Below are positions 28,173-50,697 of a stretch of 64,000 nucleotides of DNA, in pieces. The translations under genes were made by a program, and so were the position numbers. Every line of letters begins with the position of its first letter. The stretch's first letter is position 1. The stretch is from positions 1-64,000 of the forward strand of contig JABDMU010000078.1 in the NCBI GenBank assembly GCA_013001285.1. Reading direction: 5' to 3'. The notes under the pieces were generated by a model, which was not told the origin of the DNA, made no database searches, and saw only the letters and a list, made by a program, of their open reading frames with translations. This DNA is from Flavobacteriaceae bacterium. GTDB taxonomy: Bacteria; Bacteroidota; Bacteroidia; Flavobacteriales; Flavobacteriaceae.

Positions 28173-30125
28173 ATGAAAAATTCGCTATTCATTTTAAGTT
28201 GTTGTTTTTGCTTATCAATTTTAGCACAACAAAGCCACGATGTAGACTTCTTAAAAGCAAAGGTCGACATATTTGGACTTAATTTTGAAGATTCTCAGGT
28301 TGCAGGCCAAATTGAATATGAGTTTTTGATCAAAAACGATGTTGATTCTATCTATTTGGATGCAAAAAACTTCACACATTCCGAAGTGATGCTAAATAAT
28401 GGAGGTACACACGAGCACGAATATAACGGTAAGCATATCATAATTAGGGATGATTTTAAGGCGAATTCTAGTCATAAACTCATGATTAGTTGGATTACTA
28501 CTCCTAAAAAAGCCTTGTATTTTGTTGAACGCCCAAATAAACAGCAGCAAATATGGACCCAGGGACAAGGGAAGTATACAAGTAATTGGATGCCCAGTAT
28601 AGATGATATGAATGAAAAAATTGAATTTGATCTTTCCATCAGCTACAAAAATGGATATGATGTGATTGCCAATGGTCAATTAGTTGAAAAGGAGGTTGGC
28701 AGAAAAAACACCCGATGGGATTTTAATATGAATCAGCCTATGGCTAGTTATTTGTTGGCATTCGTTGTTGGGAAATTTGATAAAAAAATCGAATATTCTA
28801 ATAGTGGTATTCCCCTTGAGATGTACTATTATCCTGAAGACTCCACTAAATTTGAACCAACTTACCGTTATTCTAAAAAGATGTTCGATTTCCTTGAGAA
28901 CCAAATAGGCATACCATATCCATGGCAAAATTATAAACAAGTGCCTGTACACGACTTCCTCTATGCTGGAATGGAGAATACATCACTTACTATTTTTTCT
29001 GATCGTTATGTTGTAGACTCCATAGGTTTTAATGATTTTAATTATGTGAATGTTAATGCTCATGAATTAGCACATCAATGGTTCGGAAATATGGTCACTG
29101 CCACCTCTGGAACACATCATTGGTTGCAGGAAGGATTTGCGACTTATTATGCTTTACTCGTAGAGAAGCAAGCCTTCGGTGTTGATTATTTTTATTGGAA
29201 ACTTTACGAATCAGCTCAACAATTGTATATACAAGAGCAAATGGGTCAAGGCACACGACTTTTAGATCCTAATTCAAGTAGCTTGACCTTCTATCAAAAA
29301 GGAGCATGGACATTATTCATGCTAAATGAATTAATAGGGGAGACCGCATTTAAGGAAGCTATTCAAAATTACTTAAATGCAAATGCCTTTAAAAATGTTA
29401 ATACGTCCCACTTTATTAAAGAGGCAGAGAAGGCTAGTGGGCGCGATCTCTCAGAATTTACAAAAGTATGGTTGGAGACTACAGATTTCCCTATAGATCG
29501 TGCTTTAGATGCTTTAAAGTTAAATTCTGTATTTATTCAAGAATATCTTATGGTAGATTGTGAAGTGGATTCATCAAAATGTGATGATTATCTGCTGTCT
29601 GGTATTTCGGACGAAGCTAAAGTTAAATTGATCGCCCAAAATCCAAAAAAAATAAATGCTGAGGTATTTAAGAGCAGTTATAAAGTGAGACAAGCAATTG
29701 CTGAAAATCTGAGGGAAATCCCTGAAACCTTAAAGCAGGAATATGAAGCCTTATTACTTGATAAATCGTATATAACCATTGAAAACGCATTATTCAATCT
29801 TTGGAATAATTTCCCAAAAGATAGAATGCGTTATTTGTCGCAAACGAAAAGCTTAATTGGATTGAACAATAAGAATATCAGACTGTTGTGGCTATTACTG
29901 GCATCTATTACCACAGAATATGATAAAGATTCTAAGGTTAAGTTTATTGAAGAATTAAGGGGTTACACAGGCCCAAAACATAATTTCGAAATAAGAATGA
30001 CCGCATTCCAATATCTAAAAATGATTGATGAATGCAACTTTCACTGTTTAGAAAATTTAGAGCAAGCAAAAGGTCATTTCAACTGGCAATTATCTAAATT
30101 TGCAAAGAATTTGATTAAAAATTAA
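28173..30125 (+). CDS. M1-family metallo-aminopeptidase, secreted
   Basis: This is a zinc aminopeptidase related to LTA4 hydrolase and aminopeptidase N. The 650-residue protein carries a signal peptide (cleaved near ILAQQ) and is probably periplasmic. Residues about 25-200 are the N-terminal saddle. The catalytic domain holds the exopeptidase motif GMEN (266-269) and HELAHQW with H297, E298, H301, followed 18 residues on by the third ligand E320 (WLQEGFATYY). All zinc ligands and the catalytic Glu are intact. Residues about 480-650 are the C-terminal helical repeat. The patatin gene follows six bases later, suggesting one transcript. Contrast the inactive relative at 46603-49431. Confidence 0.92.
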   Translation: MKNSLFILSCCFCLSILAQQSHDVDFLKAKVDIFGLNFEDSQVAGQIEYEFLIKNDVDSIYLDAKNFTHSEVMLNNGGTHEHEYNGKHIIIRDDFKANSSHKLMISWITTPKKALYFVERPNKQQQIWTQGQGKYTSNWMPSIDDMNEKIEFDLSISYKNGYDVIANGQLVEKEVGRKNTRWDFNMNQPMASYLLAFVVGKFDKKIEYSNSGIPLEMYYYPEDSTKFEPTYRYSKKMFDFLENQIGIPYPWQNYKQVPVHDFLYAGMENTSLTIFSDRYVVDSIGFNDFNYVNVNAHELAHQWFGNMVTATSGTHHWLQEGFATYYALLVEKQAFGVDYFYWKLYESAQQLYIQEQMGQGTRLLDPNSSSLTFYQKGAWTLFMLNELIGETAFKEAIQNYLNANAFKNVNTSHFIKEAEKASGRDLSEFTKVWLETTDFPIDRALDALKLNSVFIQEYLMVDCEVDSSKCDDYLLSGISDEAKVKLIAQNPKKINAEVFKSSYKVRQAIAENLREIPETLKQEYEALLLDKSYITIENALFNLWNNFPKDRMRYLSQTKSLIGLNNKNIRLLWLLLASITTEYDKDSKVKFIEELRGYTGPKHNFEIRMTAFQYLKMIDECNFHCLENLEQAKGHFNWQLSKFAKNLIKN

Positions 30126-30131
30126 AATTAA

Positions 30132-31040
30132 ATGAGAGCTTTAGTTATTTCTGGAGGTGGAAGTAAAGGCGCCTTTGCTGGAGGAGTTGCACAATTTCTG
30201 ATCGAAAATCAAGGTCGACAATATGATATGTTGCTTGGCACCTCGACCGGCAGTTTATTGGTTTCTCATTTAGCACTTAAAAATATCCCAAAAATCTATA
30301 AGATTTTTACTAATGTCAGGCAAAACGATATCTTCAGCGTAAGCCCTTTTGTGCAACGAAAAAGAGGAAATCGTGAATATGTATCTATTGATTTTATGAA
30401 TTCGCTATGGCAATTCATCAAAATGAAACGGACGTTTGGTGAAAGTAAAGCCCTTAAACGTAATATTAGAAAACAATTTACTCGAGCGGAATTCGAAGAA
30501 TTAAGAGCATTAGGAAAGGATGTTGTGGTTACAGTATCCAATTTATCAAAAAATAGGGTTGAGTATAAGTCGATAAAGGAATGCTCATATGAAGAGTTTT
30601 GTGAGTGGATATGGATCTCATGCAATTATATTCCATTTATGTCATTGGCTAAGGTCAATGGCTATGAATATGCCGATGGCGGATTGGGTTGTGTAGTCCC
30701 AATTCGAGAAGCTATAAAACGTGGAGCCACAGAAGTTGACGCTATTGTGCTCGAATCGGAAACTATGGAACAGCAGAAGGTTTTAGGTAAAAACCCGTTT
30801 TCCCTTATGATCAGTCTATTTGGGCATTTATTAGATCAAGTAGAGCGAAATGACATTGTCATTGGAAAGCTTGCTGCAAAGAATAAGGATGTTAAGTTAA
30901 ATTTATTTTACACGCCAACACGATTAACAGAAAACTCACTGATCTTTAGTAAACGGCTTATGGTTAAGTGGTGGCAGGAAGGATTTGATTACGCTAAAGA
31001 AAAGTACGCGAAATCACCTTCAAATGAATTGAAAGAATAA
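30132..31040 (+). CDS. Patatin-like phospholipase
   Basis: This 302-residue serine hydrolase of the patatin family probably deacylates phospholipids or other lipids. The oxyanion-hole motif GGGSKGAFAGG is at residues 8-18. The nucleophile S38 lies in GTSTG. The dyad Asp is D182 in YADGGLG. There is no signal peptide or membrane segment, so it is likely cytosolic or peripheral. It lies six bases after the M1 aminopeptidase and is probably cotranscribed with it, although the two activities have no obvious pathway link. Confidence 0.9.
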   Translation: MRALVISGGGSKGAFAGGVAQFLIENQGRQYDMLLGTSTGSLLVSHLALKNIPKIYKIFTNVRQNDIFSVSPFVQRKRGNREYVSIDFMNSLWQFIKMKRTFGESKALKRNIRKQFTRAEFEELRALGKDVVVTVSNLSKNRVEYKSIKECSYEEFCEWIWISCNYIPFMSLAKVNGYEYADGGLGCVVPIREAIKRGATEVDAIVLESETMEQQKVLGKNPFSLMISLFGHLLDQVERNDIVIGKLAAKNKDVKLNLFYTPTRLTENSLIFSKRLMVKWWQEGFDYAKEKYAKSPSNELKE

Positions 31041-44016: not shown

Positions 44017-46428
44017 TTAACGAAGTTTGGGATAATCTAATGGCATGGCTTCATGCATTACGTCGTATACAGCTTCGAAAATGTCCTCGGTGGAAGGTTT
44101 GCTGAAATAGTCACCATCTGTGCCATAGGCTGGTCTATGAGGTTTGGCTGTGACAGTCCTTGGTTGACTATCTAAAAATTTAAACGCATTTTGCTCATTA
44201 ATGATCGCATTTAAAATAAATGCAGAAGCACCTCCTGGGACATCTTCATCTATGATCATTAATCGATTTGTTTTTTCAATACTTTTTACAATATTATGAT
44301 CGAGGTCAAATGGTACCAATGTTTGCACATCAATAACTTCAGCATCAATACCAACTTCTAGTAGTTCAATAGCAGCTTGTTCAACAAGTCTTAAAGTAGA
44401 ACCATATGAAACTAATGTAATATCAGATCCAGTTTTAATAGTTTCTACGACTCCAATAGGTGTTTTAAATTTTCCAACATTGGTTGGTAATTTTTCCTTT
44501 AGTCGATAACCATTTAAGCATTCGATGATCAAAGCAGGTTGATCGCCTTCAAGTACTGTATTATAAAATCCAGCAGCTTTGGTCATATTTCTCGGAACTA
44601 GAACATAAACGCCACGCATAAGATTGATCACGCCTCCTAATTGTGAGCCCGAGTGCCAAATACCTTCAAGCCTATGACCACGTGTTCGTATAATCATAGG
44701 AGCTTTTTGTTTACCCTTTGTTCTGTAATGAAGCGTTGCTAAATCGTCACTAATAATCTGCAGTGCATACATCAAATAATCTAAGTATTGGATCTCAGCA
44801 ATTGGGCGTAAGCCACGCATGGCCATACCGATGCCTTGACCTAATATTGTCGCTTCGCGAATCCCTGTATCGGCAACACGAAATTCACCGTACTTCTCTT
44901 GGAGTCCTTCGAGGCCTTGATTAACATCACCAATATTTCCCGAATCTTCACCAAAAACAAGAACATTAGGATATGTGCTAAAAATGGCATCGAAATTATC
45001 TCTTATAATAATGCGTCCGTCAACTTCTTCTTGTGCATCATTATAAGTAGGTTTAACCTCAGCGATATGAATAGGATTGTACTTCGATTCAGAATAGAGA
45101 TGTGAACTGTACTTAGGTTGGATCTCTGCAAAATAGTTATTTAGCCAGGCCTGCAACTGAACTTTGGAATCAGAACTTTCACCTGTGACATATCGAAGCG
45201 CTTTTCTTGCTGTACTTGCAATATCCTTTCTTAATGGCTCATGAATTTCTAAAAGATCGCTTGCCAGTTTTTCAATAAAGGCTTTATTTGCGCTTGAATT
45301 TGAGAGAGATTCTAACAAACTCAATACGGTTTGTCGTTCGCTTAAAATGGGTGAAATAAAGGCATTCCAAGCTGCTTTTTTCCCTTCACGTACTTCTTTT
45401 TTTATTGATTTTTCAAGCTCAGTTAGTTCTTCCTCATTGGCAAAACTATTGGAAATCATCCAAGCTCTCATTTTAGCGATGCAGTCATATTCGGCCTCCC
45501 AATCTAGCCGTTCCTTCGATTTATAACGTTCATGCGATCCAGATGTAGAATGTCCTTGCGGCTGCGTTAATTCTTGTACATGAATAAGTACAGGGACATG
45601 TTCATTTCGAGCTATTTCTGAAGCTTGCTGAAAAGTTTCAATCAATGTTACATAATCCCAGCCTTTCACCCTTAATATTTCATAGCCATTGGCTTCATCA
45701 TCGCGTTGAAAACCTTTTAATATTTCAGATATATTTTCTTTTGTTGTTTGATGTTTGGCGTGTACTGAGATACCATATTCATCATCCCAAATACTAATGA
45801 CCATTGGAACTTGAAGAACACCGGCAGCGTTGATAGTTTCAAAGAACAAACCTTCACTGGTACTTGCGTTACCTATTGTTCCCCAAGCAATTTCATTGCC
45901 ATTATTTGAGAATTTGGTGGTGTCAATTCCCTTGACATGTCTATATATTTTTGAAGCTTGAGCCAAGCCTAATAGTCGCGGCATTTGGCTCGCTGTAGGA
46001 GAGACATCTGCACTTGAATTCTTCTGCTTGGTAAGATCTTTCCATTCATAATCATTGGTAAGACTGTGCGAACCAAAATGACCGCCCATTTGTCGACCCG
46101 CACTCATAGGATCTACTTCTATATCGGTATGGGCATAAAGTCCTGCAAAGAATTGTTCGATGGTTAATTGGCCAATAGCCATCATAAAGGTCTGGTCACG
46201 GTAATAGCCCGACCTAAAGTCGCCGTTTTGAAATGCTTTGGCCCAGGCCAACTGGGGAATCTCTTTGCCGTCTCCAAATATGCCAAATTTAGCCTTGCCA
46301 GTTAACACCTCCCGACGTCCAAGTACACTGCATTCCCGACTGGTGATTGCAATGGCGTAGTCGTTCATGATCTCGCTCTTGAAATCATCAAATGACATGC
46401 TGGTTTTTATATCTGGATTTGTTTGCAT
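44017..46428 (-). CDS. Fused 2-oxoacid (branched-chain-type) dehydrogenase E1 alpha/beta
   Basis: This 803-residue thiamine-diphosphate-dependent E1 oxidatively decarboxylates 2-oxoacids, most likely 2-oxoisovalerate-type, and passes the acyl group to a lipoyl E2. Alpha and beta chains are joined: residues 1 to about 460 (E1 alpha; RDQTFMMAIGQLTIEQF, GHFGSH) and about 470-803 (beta; GVNQGLEGLQEKYGEFRVADTGIREATILGQGIG, then transketolase-C). E2 and E3 are not adjacent. I chose ATG 46428 because a matching promoter lies right upstream, making the longer TTG start at 46452 impossible. The cofactor motif is unusual: GNASTSEG (186-193) in place of GDGAASEG, and DDEYG (215-219) in place of NNGYA. 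Confidence 0.87.
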   Translation of the reverse strand: MQTNPDIKTSMSFDDFKSEIMNDYAIAITSRECSVLGRREVLTGKAKFGIFGDGKEIPQLAWAKAFQNGDFRSGYYRDQTFMMAIGQLTIEQFFAGLYAHTDIEVDPMSAGRQMGGHFGSHSLTNDYEWKDLTKQKNSSADVSPTASQMPRLLGLAQASKIYRHVKGIDTTKFSNNGNEIAWGTIGNASTSEGLFFETINAAGVLQVPMVISIWDDEYGISVHAKHQTTKENISEILKGFQRDDEANGYEILRVKGWDYVTLIETFQQASEIARNEHVPVLIHVQELTQPQGHSTSGSHERYKSKERLDWEAEYDCIAKMRAWMISNSFANEEELTELEKSIKKEVREGKKAAWNAFISPILSERQTVLSLLESLSNSSANKAFIEKLASDLLEIHEPLRKDIASTARKALRYVTGESSDSKVQLQAWLNNYFAEIQPKYSSHLYSESKYNPIHIAEVKPTYNDAQEEVDGRIIIRDNFDAIFSTYPNVLVFGEDSGNIGDVNQGLEGLQEKYGEFRVADTGIREATILGQGIGMAMRGLRPIAEIQYLDYLMYALQIISDDLATLHYRTKGKQKAPMIIRTRGHRLEGIWHSGSQLGGVINLMRGVYVLVPRNMTKAAGFYNTVLEGDQPALIIECLNGYRLKEKLPTNVGKFKTPIGVVETIKTGSDITLVSYGSTLRLVEQAAIELLEVGIDAEVIDVQTLVPFDLDHNIVKSIEKTNRLMIIDEDVPGGASAFILNAIINEQNAFKFLDSQPRTVTAKPHRPAYGTDGDYFSKPSTEDIFEAVYDVMHEAMPLDYPKLR

Positions 46429-46449
46429 TAATAAGACTTTCCTAAAGCA

Positions 46450-46480
46450 CAAATGTAGCTAAAGTTTATGAAAATTACAA
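46450..46480 (-). promoter_or_regulatory. Promoter of the fused E1 gene
   Basis: On the minus strand, TTG (46480-46478), a 20-base spacer and TACATTTG (46457-46450) match the Bacteroidota consensus exactly. Transcription is expected near 46444, about 16 bases before the ATG at 46428. This decides the start codon. Confidence 0.82.
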
Positions 46481-46602: not shown

Positions 46603-49431
46603 TTAATACCATTTTCGTCTAAAAAGACCGAGTAAAGTTTGTGGGTCCACCGTTAATACAAAGCGTATTTTTTGATCATAATGTGCTTGCGAAATTTCCC
46701 AACCTAAATTGGAATAAACAGGAAAATAAACTTCAAAATAATCGGTGACCAAATTCAAGCGAATTCCCGAGTCATAAACGAATTTCGGATCGTTGTATCT
46801 GTTTTTAACAAAACCAATATCGCCATAGGCTTGAATATAACGCCAGATAGTCGTACTTACATTAGCTGTTGCGATCCATTGATTGGCAAAAGGTGTTTCT
46901 AATTTCGATTTAAATCCGCCTTCTGCGATGATCAATTGCTGACTGTAAATTCCTGAAGCTTCAGAGCGCCCAAGGTAGTTGTAATCAAACAGGTAATCGG
47001 TGGGTCTATCTAGAGCAAAATTAAAATAGTCGAAGCCTTCTGGATTTCGATTATATAAGAATGTTCCTCCAAAGAGTCTAATATTTAATTGTCGATTACT
47101 CTCGAAAAGTTTGCGGTATTCGTAGTTAAATGAAATTTTCCCAAATGTTTTGGCAACTTGAAAATCGGCGAACCATTTTTTGTAATTGATCAAATTATCA
47201 TCTGAATAAACGTAGCGTATATTCATGACATTATAATTTGGGTCATCAACTTCAGAAATGTTATTTACATCTTTATCTCTATTAATATCAAGGTATCTGA
47301 AATTTAAATACTGACGCTTGTTCGATCTCAAATCATCTTTATCTCTAAACGTTAGTGATAATGAAGGTGTTAACTTTCTGAAGAAAAGTCCTTCGGCATA
47401 TGATTGAAAACTATAATGAACCCCATAAGAAAGCCTAAACAGATCCTTATTCTGAACATTGTGCGTATAAAATAATGAAGCCGATCCAGTAAAGGTTTTC
47501 GATTTTGTTGCGTATTGAGGTGAAAACTTATAGCTGAATTGTTTTCTTAATAAGGTTTTATTGTAAACTTTTAATCCAGTGGTTATACCATCATAAATAT
47601 TTTTAAATTCTACTTGAGGCATCAAAAACACCTGACTATAATTAGGATCTTCAAAATCTTTGAACAGTCTAAATTGTAATGGTTTACTATTAAAGAAAAA
47701 ACCTTTTAACGATTTCCAATTGTCTCTTAGGTTATACTCAGGAATGGTCTGATCATAATTAAGAACGAGTTTGTTCGCCTCATTACGTGGTATGGTAATT
47801 GTTTTTTCATCCTTGATATTTGTAACCCAGGTTTTTGAAATTATTGAATCATTATTCAAAGCAAATAATGACACTGGCATATTGTTCTTCTTTTTATTTT
47901 TTATGGTAAGTGTAATGGAATCTTCAGATTTTTCAACTTTTTTTATTTTAAAATCTATTTTCTTTCGTGTATTAATATAATCGTTAAAGAACCAGTTGAT
48001 ATCCTTGTCAGTTTTCGATTTTAAATACAATTCAAAATCCTTCACTTTTACTGGTTTCACTTTGTTTTGGGTCAAAAATTCCTTGACAGATGCCTCTAAT
48101 ATATTGGCATTAACAAAATCATCAAGATATTTCAAGCCCACTCCAGCTTTATATTTATTGGCCAGTCTTTGATTAAATTTGAGTAAAGAGTCTTTTGCCA
48201 TGCCAATGGGTTGATCACGATTTGTGCGCGCCATATGCATATAAACAATCCCATATTGATCATTAAAATTCAAATCTGCAGCGTGAAAAGCACGTACGCC
48301 CCACATATTTGCAAACGACCCAAGAAGCTTCATGTCAGGATAATTTTCTTCAATATATTTTATGAGAAAATAAATCTGAATCCCATCTTTTAACCATTGT
48401 TCTTTGCGTGGGTTAATTAAAAGCGTATTGTCTAAGAAATTTCCAATAGTATTTTTTAAAAGGGTCAATTCATATTTAAAATTCTTTGGAAATGGTCTGA
48501 TGAAATCTGGTAATTGATTCAATCCATATATGGGGTCCTTAGAGGCATCAATTTCTGTAACAAGCAATTTTTCATGCGGATAATCACCGAGATGTTTTTC
48601 AATGTATTGTGTGACCTTATCAGTGATAACAGCCATGTCTGTTGCTTCTAAATCTTTCTCGGTTATATCTGAGATCACTGAAAAATTATCGGTCTGAATG
48701 GTTTTATACTTCGGAAATCTTGATAAAAAGAGTTTTGTGTTAACACGATCCTTTCCTGAAAGAATAAAAGTTTGACTGTTTTCCTTTTGAGTTGTTTCAA
48801 TCAAATCTAACTCAGAGGTTAGTACATAATTCCTTGGAAATTCAAATTGTAAAGTGATATCAGCCTTAGGAACATAAAGGTCATTAAGATCTTTATTACT
48901 AAAATAATGCCATTGTCCGTCAAAAACCGCTGGTGTGATATACCAATATTTTAAATTCAGTTCCTGAAAAGGAGAAATTCCGTAGCCTGTAAATTTATCA
49001 TTAGGCAACTTAATAATGTAGCTTAAATTCAACTTATAGCTTTCACCTGGTTCTAATGTTTCAGATAAAACGACTTTTATGACATCTGGATGTTTTTGAA
49101 GACGCTCATAAGATAACTCTGTTGATTCATTTTGAATAGAGATAATTGCGGTAAATCCGCGATCTTCATTTTTAGCAAAATGAAATTTTGTACTGTATTC
49201 TTCAGCAAAGCGTTTTGCCAAAGGCGTTACTTTCGTCGAAAAACTATTGCTCCAATCACTTAAATAAATGGTGTCAAGTTTTACATTCGATTCATTTTTG
49301 TAGCTAATAAATTGATTGATATTAATACTCGTTTCTTCTAAATCAAAAACAGCATTGATGTCAATTTTATTTTGAGCGAAGACCGTTGAGGACAGTAGGA
49401 AAATCGATATGTAGAGTAGGGCTTTCTTCAA
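46603..49431 (-). CDS. Inactivated M1-peptidase-like domain fused to a C-terminal outer-membrane beta barrel
   Basis: This 942-residue exported protein (signal peptide ending TVFAQ) starts like an M1/gluzincin aminopeptidase, with a saddle domain to about 245 and a helical catalytic-like domain to about 500. The zinc site is lost: aligned on WLKDG (346-350) versus the active WLQEG at 28173-30125, HELAH becomes KNTIG (326-330) and the third ligand Glu is D349. From about residue 600 the sequence changes to alternating aromatic beta strands (KQFSYKFSPQYATK, SLFYTHNV, FFNFALDRPTDYLF) and ends in Tyr after RRKW, as outer-membrane barrels do. The combination is probably a surface or periplasmic binding module on a barrel. 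It directly follows the EEP nuclease gene without a gap. Confidence 0.8.
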   Translation of the reverse strand: MKKALLYISIFLLSSTVFAQNKIDINAVFDLEETSININQFISYKNESNVKLDTIYLSDWSNSFSTKVTPLAKRFAEEYSTKFHFAKNEDRGFTAIISIQNESTELSYERLQKHPDVIKVVLSETLEPGESYKLNLSYIIKLPNDKFTGYGISPFQELNLKYWYITPAVFDGQWHYFSNKDLNDLYVPKADITLQFEFPRNYVLTSELDLIETTQKENSQTFILSGKDRVNTKLFLSRFPKYKTIQTDNFSVISDITEKDLEATDMAVITDKVTQYIEKHLGDYPHEKLLVTEIDASKDPIYGLNQLPDFIRPFPKNFKYELTLLKNTIGNFLDNTLLINPRKEQWLKDGIQIYFLIKYIEENYPDMKLLGSFANMWGVRAFHAADLNFNDQYGIVYMHMARTNRDQPIGMAKDSLLKFNQRLANKYKAGVGLKYLDDFVNANILEASVKEFLTQNKVKPVKVKDFELYLKSKTDKDINWFFNDYINTRKKIDFKIKKVEKSEDSITLTIKNKKKNNMPVSLFALNNDSIISKTWVTNIKDEKTITIPRNEANKLVLNYDQTIPEYNLRDNWKSLKGFFFNSKPLQFRLFKDFEDPNYSQVFLMPQVEFKNIYDGITTGLKVYNKTLLRKQFSYKFSPQYATKSKTFTGSASLFYTHNVQNKDLFRLSYGVHYSFQSYAEGLFFRKLTPSLSLTFRDKDDLRSNKRQYLNFRYLDINRDKDVNNISEVDDPNYNVMNIRYVYSDDNLINYKKWFADFQVAKTFGKISFNYEYRKLFESNRQLNIRLFGGTFLYNRNPEGFDYFNFALDRPTDYLFDYNYLGRSEASGIYSQQLIIAEGGFKSKLETPFANQWIATANVSTTIWRYIQAYGDIGFVKNRYNDPKFVYDSGIRLNLVTDYFEVYFPVYSNLGWEISQAHYDQKIRFVLTVDPQTLLGLFRRKWY

Positions 49432-50697
49432 TTATTTTTTTATAAATTTAATTGGTTGAATGTAATTATTCGATACAACTACGTAATATATGCCTGATGA
49501 CCAATTAGATACATTTATTTTAAATTGGTTTAAATCATTTATTGTCATTGAGGTCATTTTTTGTCCGATTGGATTAAATACAGAAAGGCGTTCGCCAATT
49601 AGGTGAGCAGATGTTGCCTGAAGCCTGAGCCAATCTGAAAGCACATTTGGACCTAATACTTGTAATGAAGCATTTTGAACCAAATCTTCAACACCTAGTA
49701 TCGTTTCAAATGTTTCAAGTTGAACCAGTACTGGTAAATGGTCACTCATTTGATAGAGTTCGTTTCTTATGGTGAGGTCATATTCAGGTCCAGCACAATT
49801 TGAGCTAATAATTTCATCATTATAACAATTGGTATTGGCATTATTGCCATAGACTTTATAGGAGTTTGGAACATAATAAAGATCAGAATTTGTGATCATA
49901 TTTTCGGAGGTCATTATGAAATCGAAGCGATCATCGAAGCCTCCTGTTGCGCCACCCAATCCTGTTTGTGTTCGTGTAGATTGTGTAAAAACATCTACAA
50001 AACTGACGTTATTATGCCAGCTTCCTTGACGGTTGGCCGGGTCAACAAAGGTGATATTATTAGATGTGTCTACCAATTCAATAAACGCATTTTCAGTATG
50101 CGTATAAAGATTAAGATCACCACCTAGTAAAACCAAATCGTCATTTGCAAGATTTGCATCCATGTAGCTTATGAGTTCAGTAACCATCTCAAATCTTATG
50201 GCTTGATTGCTGTCTCCACTTGAAGCTTTTAAATGACAGACAAATAAATTTAGGAAAATTGGATTTGTATTTTGATCAACCGAATTTAATTTAAGCACAT
50301 AATGATTAAAATCACGAACGGTTGTTGGCACTTCATCTTGTGACACCAATATGAATTTTGAGGCATCGTAATACATCATGTTTTGAAGATCGTTTTGATT
50401 GCCTGTAGTATCGTCTGATGTATTTAAAACAAAATTTGCGCCTGCATAATCCGGTTTAACCCCTTGAAGCATATTTAGAATATTATTCGAGCCTTGAACA
50501 TTATTTACTTCACATACCATAAAAATATCGGGCTGAGTATTTGTAATAATAGCTTCCAAATTATCAATTCTCGATGCCGGAGTTTGATCCGGATAATTCA
50601 AGACATTATAAAACATCACATTGAAAGTTTCTTGAGCAAAACCCAGCGAAAGCCCGAAAAGACATAAAAATAAAGCTATTAATTTTTTCTTATTCAT
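49432..50697 (-). CDS. Secreted endonuclease/exonuclease/phosphatase-family protein with T9SS domain
   Basis: This 421-residue EEP-fold protein (DNase I/phosphoesterase family) has a signal peptide ending GFAQ. Metal- and active-site motifs are recognisable: NVMFYNVLNYPDQ (Asn), FMVCEVNN (metal Glu), NLFVCHLKAS (His), LLGGDLNLYT (Asp, Asn) and MSDHLPVLVQLE (final Asp-His). The last ~75 residues (LQVLGPNVLSDWLRLQ to KFIKK) resemble a T9SS sorting domain, so it is probably secreted to the surface or medium. The substrate may be extracellular DNA or a phosphoester. It lies upstream of, and adjoins, the pseudo-M1 barrel gene. Confidence 0.88.
   Translation of the reverse strand: MNKKKLIALFLCLFGLSLGFAQETFNVMFYNVLNYPDQTPASRIDNLEAIITNTQPDIFMVCEVNNVQGSNNILNMLQGVKPDYAGANFVLNTSDDTTGNQNDLQNMMYYDASKFILVSQDEVPTTVRDFNHYVLKLNSVDQNTNPIFLNLFVCHLKASSGDSNQAIRFEMVTELISYMDANLANDDLVLLGGDLNLYTHTENAFIELVDTSNNITFVDPANRQGSWHNNVSFVDVFTQSTRTQTGLGGATGGFDDRFDFIMTSENMITNSDLYYVPNSYKVYGNNANTNCYNDEIISSNCAGPEYDLTIRNELYQMSDHLPVLVQLETFETILGVEDLVQNASLQVLGPNVLSDWLRLQATSAHLIGERLSVFNPIGQKMTSMTINDLNQFKINVSNWSSGIYYVVVSNNYIQPIKFIKK

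Follow-up and report, generated by a model that had tools for sequence, protein, structure and literature searches.

A pseudo-peptidase of predicted M1 fold fused to a predicted outer-membrane barrel and kept by nearly all sampled Flavobacteriaceae

What is left for a metallopeptidase to do once its zinc site is gone and its fold is carried on a barrel of the outer membrane is the question raised by the gene at 46603-49431, on the reverse strand of a 64,000-nucleotide stretch (the window hereafter) of contig JABDMU010000078.1 from a Flavobacteriaceae bacterium (assembly GCA_013001285.1). The original prediction, made from the sequence alone, described its product as a dead M1 fold joined to a C-terminal barrel with an aromatic end. 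Structure prediction and family comparisons now suggest that this 942-residue protein is very probably a pseudo-peptidase of M1 fold fused to an outer-membrane barrel. The open reading frame (ORF) is intact, starts with TTG directly 3' of the TAA of the upstream gene and has its first Met after this start at residue 266.

Direct searches with the protein fall short of the M1 family: it scores below the Pfam Peptidase_M1 threshold (14.5 bits, cut-off 27.7), NCBIfam gives no match, phmmer with the full protein finds no chain in PDB and a pairwise BLASTP comparison yields no match to the intact M1 enzyme at 28173-30125 (best E 0.29). Because direct BLASTP and Pfam failed, the alignment to the M1 site was routed through relatives that keep the HEXXH motif; the Pfam cut-off is passed by all six scanned HEXXH-bearing relatives and by neither of the two scanned dead ones. 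In an AlphaFold2 (AF2) model of the whole protein, built from 53 alignment rows (predicted local distance difference test, pLDDT, 80.7; predicted template-modelling score, pTM, 0.79), residues 22 to about 560 form an M1 saddle, a gluzincin domain and an all-beta third domain. Using VIA-align, whose unlisted families are not counted as absent, 469 residues of the model were aligned to puromycin-sensitive aminopeptidase with Z 22.3 and a root-mean-square deviation (rmsd) of 3.3 Å, other M1 enzymes being tied. Foldseek with the predicted model gave a best E of 1.3e-17, and the family profile A1 matches PDB M1 aminopeptidases over positions 262-488 (E 9e-11). As modelled, the protein has the M1 fold, sharing domains I to III with the PF01433 family (ERAP, puromycin-sensitive aminopeptidase, LTA4 hydrolase, Deinococcus M1), from which it differs in the absence of the zinc site, the catalytic Glu and the exopeptidase Glu and in the barrel that follows domain III. 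The dead M1 fold joined to a barrel is borne out by AF2, VIA-align and Foldseek as far as prediction goes: the predicted structure contains both the N-terminal gluzincin fold and the C-terminal barrel whose absence had been named beforehand as grounds for giving the claim up, and the chain ends ...RRKWY after the predicted barrel.

Aligned through the HEXXH-keeping relatives, their HEVGH falls on K326-N-T-I-G330, the Glu of the (D)EG helix on D349 and the exopeptidase Glu of GMEY type on N305; the columns first proposed, HELAH to KNTIG at 326-330 and the third-ligand Glu to D349, were recovered unchanged. By this alignment none of the zinc ligands is left, and neither the catalytic Glu nor the Glu for exopeptidase action remains. 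Among 26 rows picked for HEXXH, in which the invariance of that motif is by construction because rows were sorted by it, the third-ligand Glu and the GMEY Glu are also invariant (26/26 each); all five site positions vary across 27 dead rows. Within the family, represented by 142 distinct proteins picked as full length at 850 aa or more (73 from f1, the code of the window's own family, and 69 NCBI-named Flavobacteriaceae), position 326 is K or R in all 142 and position 349 is D or E in 135, the pairs being K-D (121), K-E (13), R-D (1), K-G (5), K-S (1) and K-N (1). The same pair in other dead families reads G-N (five) or S-N (two) in 7/7 f2 proteins, K-E in f56, N-N in f57 and K-K in f65, and so far as these columns tell, the dead site is rebuilt differently in each family. 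In M1 enzymes the positions equivalent to 326 and 349 bind the same zinc ion; since both hold one zinc there, an ion pair between them is a natural guess, and in Flavobacteriaceae the zinc site has probably turned into a Lys326-Asp/Glu349 pair that keeps the fold together. Seven residues (N305, L307, P308, F310, K326, R342 and W346) are invariant in 53 rows. In f60 the 326/349 pair is mixed, and H-R is seen in three of its copies; the full-length proteins of f2 and f60 include L061-L064 and L126-L132. An M1 fold that outlives catalysis has a precedent in TAF2, a catalytically dead M1-like subunit of TFIID, which unlike the present protein is eukaryotic, nuclear and without a barrel.

None of the 142 family proteins carries HEXXH. 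Among 197 distinct full-length proteins it is absent from f1 (73/73), the NCBI-named Flavobacteriaceae (69/69), vaguely or doubtfully labelled relatives (4/4), f2 (7/7), f56, f57 and f65 (1/1 each) and most of f60 (8/9), and it is present in the remaining f60 protein (1/9), in f58, f67, f6 and f7 (1/1 each), f59 and f68 (2/2 each), f64 (6/6), f4 (7/8), f5 (4/4), f9 (3/3) and f13 (3/3); the survey of Bacteroidota that had been suggested as a check has found the motif lost throughout the family and kept in several others. In a tree of 54 chosen rows with the site columns removed (short search, no bootstrap, two f13 proteins as outgroup, 21 rows flagged for letter make-up), two changes explain the loss of HEXXH. 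The first lies under the 27 dead rows (Shimodaira-Hasegawa-like approximate likelihood ratio test, SH-aLRT, 99), whose successive sisters are the HEXXH-bearing L151 (f58) and L121 (f67), and the second concerns L083 alone. The tree indicates one ancient loss of the site common to several families of the order. L151 is supported as the same gene because it has a homologue of the same downstream neighbour, the dehydrogenase described below. HEXXH is also retained in the f13 proteins (L086-L088), which can be aligned over their whole length; since the barrel profile finds no match in their genomes, the kinship of their C-terminal part is unproven.

In f4, the protein encoded at L083:3143-5893 (-) is a full-length barrel protein with an independent HEXXH loss (HAMGC), and it is adjoined at L083:5945-7576 (-) by a 543-aa HEVGH relative too short for a barrel, as if the work were divided between two genes. 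Short HEXXH relatives of 521-536 aa, likewise too short for a barrel, are found at L082:3021-4586 (+), where the gene adjoins a barrel form, and in L076, L077 and L085. Genome G757 (f60) holds an HEVGH copy and a dead full-length copy together (L124:1408-4500 (+) and L144:1498-4341 (-)).

The strongest sign that the working part has changed from the enzyme to the barrel is a flip in the ratio of M1 to barrel identity, whose median is 2.07 in 325 pairs of HEXXH proteins and 0.65 in 351 dead pairs, and which exceeds 1 in 321/325 versus 1/351 pairs; once the site and the long loop of the barrel (strands 11-12) are excluded, the medians are 2.07 versus 0.71 and the ratio exceeds 1 in 324/325 versus 12/351, the pairs not being independent and the two sets hardly overlapping. 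Averaged over pairs, the 15 class-level HEXXH rows share 51% identity in the saddle and 24.5 to 33% in the barrel parts; the 27 dead rows share 24.5% in the saddle, 25.8% at the former site and 51% in the loop, which reaches 51-66% in dead proteins. These identities indicate that constraint has moved from the M1 part to the barrel, today the best conserved part of the protein. In 12 rows from within the family, the region of the former site is 50% identical versus 42.6% for its domain, which leaves room for a family-specific role.

One full-length copy is present in the window's own genome, two further weak matches there being one other M1 gene. Of the 299 genomes sampled from the family, 291 match at E <= 1e-5 and 288 of these at E <= 3e-81, with no internal stops among the matches listed; the three weak matches (G080, G088 and G292) may be other M1 genes. 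Since 288 of the 299 genomes match strongly and no copy among the 142 has HEXXH, the loss is no local decay. In the phylum sample the full protein matches 102/395 genomes, in part via other M1 proteins only, and the barrel profile matches 66/395, once each. Open frames of at least 912 aa, long enough for an M1 module, surround 64 of these 66 matches, the exceptions being G544 (445 aa, split) and G333 (501 aa, one stop), and with the barrel profile no stand-alone gene for this barrel type was seen in the 395 genomes.

In the AF2 model, 16 strands were counted by hand from residue 599 on, with a 55-residue gap between strands 11 and 12 that is poorly predicted and contains the most conserved region of the dead proteins. 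According to DSSP, the strand gaps on the side away from the M1 module measure 3, 4, 2, 14, 3, 55, 5 and 15 residues and those on the side of the module 8, 5, 8, 3, 5, 2 and 3. The long loops of outer-membrane barrels face outside, and because they sit here on the side opposite to the M1 module, the module should be periplasmic, an argument that depends on three long gaps; in this model a periplasmic location is likely. A model of the barrel alone (residues 575-942) reached pLDDT 70.7, and in Foldseek all 50 of 50 among the matches listed are TamA, BamA or Sam50 by title (best E 1.2e-6). In predicted shape the barrel is similar to Omp85 proteins, and Omp85 membership is not claimed.

A scheme that would join these observations begins with an ancestor that was an outer-membrane-tethered periplasmic aminopeptidase. 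Catalysis would have been dropped in this line, and the protein would now assist the assembly or translocation of certain client proteins in a somewhat Omp85-like way: the barrel and the long 11-12 loop would carry out the work, and the M1 module, at the place of the Omp85 POTRA domains, would take in clients or offer partners a docking site. The reading that agrees best with the distribution of constraint, tentatively put forward here, is that of a barrel factor whose mode of action is somewhat Omp85-like and whose periplasmic receiver is the retired M1 module; assembly or translocation as its function is proposed with more reserve. The suggestion of an export or assembly machine in the original prediction is supported to some extent by the fold matches nearest to the barrel, which are Omp85 proteins.

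A good deal weighs against this proposal. The Omp85/TpsB superfamily is expected to show 16 strands and a long 11-12 loop; here the strands were counted by hand, the long loop is poor in both models and the last strands are poor in the barrel-alone model; the Omp85 matches in Foldseek have low TM-scores (0.33-0.49 of the query, rmsd 8-14), and VIA-align gives Z 13.0-15.4 for Sam50, FhaC and BamA but also 12.8-13.9 for TonB receptors and porins. Profile comparison is weak: with all rows, a TamL-like profile gives E 5e-4 (probability 30%) and BamA 1.7e-3 (16%), next to controls of 5e-3 for FadL, 0.017 for PorP and 0.03 or more for reversed profiles. With HEXXH rows alone the values are 1.6e-4 and 0.011, and with dead rows alone 4.4e-3 and 0.010, so that in these subsets BamA (0.010-0.011) is not ahead of the strongest FadL and PorP controls (0.010-0.012). 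Overall, these controls span 0.005-0.06, and a pair known to be related, BamA/TamL, reaches 6e-14. In another comparison, for which 11 BamA rows were used, E was 0.2 and the reversed control scored better (0.08). The barrel profile finds no chain among PDB sequences, and the Omp85 model of Pfam, PF01103, is matched neither by the window protein nor by eight scanned relatives nor by the gene in the search of its own genome. The (V)RGF/Y motif, which is described for loop L6 of BamA proteins in the part of PMC12611786 available, occurs in the 780-860 region of 5/197 full-length proteins versus 30/31 BamA proteins (last 250 aa), and the looser R[GA][FYW] in 25/197 versus 31/31 BamA and 15/15 TamL-like proteins. 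There is no POTRA domain, residues 490-560 being all beta in the AF2 model; the available text of the PlpD paper (PMC11116518) assigns at least one POTRA domain to each superfamily member, and that of a 2014 Omp85 survey (PMC4104836) takes the barrel as the defining feature and includes some subfamilies without POTRA. The M1 module is also the part that diverges fastest in the wider dead clade, and for this reason a conserved peptide cleft in it is disfavoured. Finally, the gene was not found in 8/299 family genomes, some of them near complete (G022 and G251 re-searched with a more sensitive profile, the other six searched with a single protein), and it is therefore not strictly essential. On the motif count, the low TM-scores and the lack of POTRA, filing the protein under Omp85 was dropped, and mainly because of the motif count the estimates for Omp85 kinship, for the function and for a new machine were all reduced; that the barrel is truly related to Omp85 is favoured only slightly. 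In the window's own genome PF01103 is matched at C79:17505-18509, in a separate gene whose 1249-aa frame contains one TAA within the matched part; at a guess, it is perhaps an Omp85 protein of the PF00149 type.

Among the alternatives, the weightiest takes the barrel mainly as an anchor and the retired M1 module as a scaffold or receptor for peptides on the inner, periplasmic face of the outer membrane. The retention of the module in all 142 distinct family proteins, a set picked as full length, would fit this, as would the higher identity at the former site within the family and the seven invariant residues, and the weak Omp85 link leaves the role of the barrel open; a pure anchor, however, should not be the more constrained part, and the M1 module is the better conserved one in only a single dead pair, with the loop among the most identical stretches. 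We regard this explanation as rather unlikely. That the protein serves a machine already known, as an accessory to BAM or to the type IX secretion system (T9SS), is improbable. It could draw on the Omp85 fold matches and on the lineage-variable accessory subunits of Bacteroidota BAM (PMC12611786, consulted in part). Against it, the purified F. johnsoniae BAM complex consists, in the published text available, of BamA with BamD, G, H, M and P and has no M1-type protein, BamM having a peptidyl-prolyl isomerase (PPI) fold and a second domain; BamM, considered as a counterpart of the present protein, was ruled out on this ground. A transient or conditional partner of BamA might have escaped such a purification. 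All eight family genomes without the gene have a SprA match, so the T9SS can do without it, and G186 shows the reverse, having the gene and no SprA match; a role as T9SS component is unsupported by this co-occurrence. The elaborate version of our proposal, an Omp85-like machine without POTRA whose retired M1 receiver is kept by nearly all Flavobacteriaceae for dedicated clients, is itself unlikely; were it true, the clients would be a dedicated class such as surface lipoproteins or a set of barrel proteins, and the relatives that keep HEXXH in other parts of the phylum would represent a version of this machine for trimming or quality control.

The other part of the original prediction, a dead peptidase displayed at the cell surface and binding peptides or proteins outside the cell, has on its side only the barrel and the signal peptide, which was judged by eye. 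The M1 module stands in the model on the side without long loops and is taken as periplasmic, as is the patatin domain that precedes the Omp85 barrel of PlpD in the portion of PMC11116518 available; no Cys is seen by eye near the signal peptide and Pfam and NCBIfam scans find no T9SS tail, and surface display is very unlikely. An active peptidase with an unusual site has in its favour that Asp349 could in principle bind metal; with substitutes for all three ligands, the catalytic Glu and the exopeptidase Glu that differ from one dead family to the next, and with the first ligand position basic in all 142 family proteins, activity is highly improbable. A decaying pseudogene, which the lost site and the TTG start might bring to mind, is scarcely conceivable in view of the strong matches across the family sample, their lack of internal stops where listed and the strong conservation of the barrel.

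The closest architectures described are enzyme folds placed before Omp85 barrels. In PlpD and other patatin-like Omp85 proteins (PMC11116518, PMC4104836; both seen in excerpt), the enzyme fold likewise lies N-terminal to the barrel and on the periplasmic side, the latter deduced here for our protein; the fold there is patatin, and here it is M1 with its site lost, without POTRA and with a weak link of the barrel to Omp85. The 'Metallo' Omp85 subfamily PF00149 (PMC4104836) resembles it in a non-POTRA N-terminal enzyme domain before the barrel, the domain itself being different. TamL and BamA of Bacteroidota (PMC12045153, PMC12611786; partial texts) provide the best profile compared, the TamL-like one, over about residues 760-875, and differ in possessing POTRA domains and an RGF/Y-type loop motif, TamL being in addition a lipoprotein. 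The subfamilies named in the available part of the 2014 survey (PMC4104836) include patatin and PF00149 types and no M1 type, and no description of an M1-Omp85 or M1-barrel protein was found in the literature searched, which covered few subscription papers and preprints. What appears new is an outer-membrane protein of known architecture, enzyme fold plus barrel, in which the enzyme is dead. As predicted here, the protein would belong to the outer membrane of nearly every member of a large bacterial family, and its unusually readable history leads from motif-bearing relatives through one ancient inactivation to a shift of constraint to the barrel. The protein offers a concrete candidate for unassigned factors in the biogenesis of outer-membrane proteins and surface lipoproteins in Bacteroidota, and what may be a clear example of how an enzyme domain is converted to a structural or receptor role.

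Table 1. Features of the pseudo-peptidase gene and of its surroundings, in coordinates of the window
Feature	Coordinates	Strand	Basis
Whole gene: signal peptide, M1-like module and predicted outer-membrane barrel, 942 aa	46603..49431	-	ORF, AF2 model
TTG start and signal peptide, residues 1-20	49372..49431	-	ORF; signal peptide by eye
M1 N-terminal (saddle) domain, residues 22-255	48667..49368	-	AF2 strands; VIA-align match to M1 structures, starting at model residue 19
Gluzincin (M1 catalytic) domain without site, residues 260-487	47971..48654	-	Profile A1 match to PDB, fold matches
Former HEXXH, K326 N T I G330	48442..48456	-	Alignment through HEXXH-bearing relatives
Former third zinc ligand Glu, D349	48385..48387	-	Alignment through HEXXH-bearing relatives
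All-beta domain III, residues 490-560, no POTRA-like helices	47752..47964	-	DSSP of AF2 model
Predicted barrel, residues 593-942, 16 strands by hand count, last strand 4 residues	46606..47655	-	AF2 models, fold and profile comparisons
Long conserved loop, strands 11-12, residues 795-849 (RPTDYLFDYNYLGRSE..SQQ..AEGGFKS), poorly predicted in both models	46885..47049	-	AF2 models, identity counts
Upstream neighbour: EEP nuclease with T9SS type A tail	49432..50697	-	NCBIfam/Pfam matches
Downstream neighbour: presumed two-subunit 2-oxoacid dehydrogenase E1-like	44017..46452	-	Neighbour survey
Separate intact M1 enzyme, used in the first comparison	28173..30125	+	PF01433 E 4e-38

The surroundings of the gene were compared in 80 named loci, the best 80 of 501 and near relatives (47-69% identity). 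The upstream EEP-type nuclease has a T9SS type A tail by TIGR04183, above cut-off, with the Pfam tail model just below; the claim that a T9SS-type nuclease adjoins the gene holds for the window, where its stop abuts the TTG, but not as a constant association, since a homologue lies upstream in only 24/80 loci, and it is perhaps an old but often lost neighbour. Same-strand homologues within the flank are found for the upstream LOG-type gene in 78 of the 80 loci, for uvrA, also upstream, in 77 and for the downstream gene, which we take to be a 2-oxoacid dehydrogenase E1-like gene (the other two names being likewise presumed), in 72; the last also has a homologue downstream of the HEXXH-bearing L151. 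The gluzincin elastase FP0506 of F. psychrophilum, considered as a possible counterpart, is a different protein, given in the accessible text as a 296-aa predicted lipoprotein. Elsewhere in the window, at 30132-31040 (+) and directly behind the intact M1 enzyme, lies a gene for a patatin-like protein, recognised by eye from GGGSKGAFAGGV and GTSTG.

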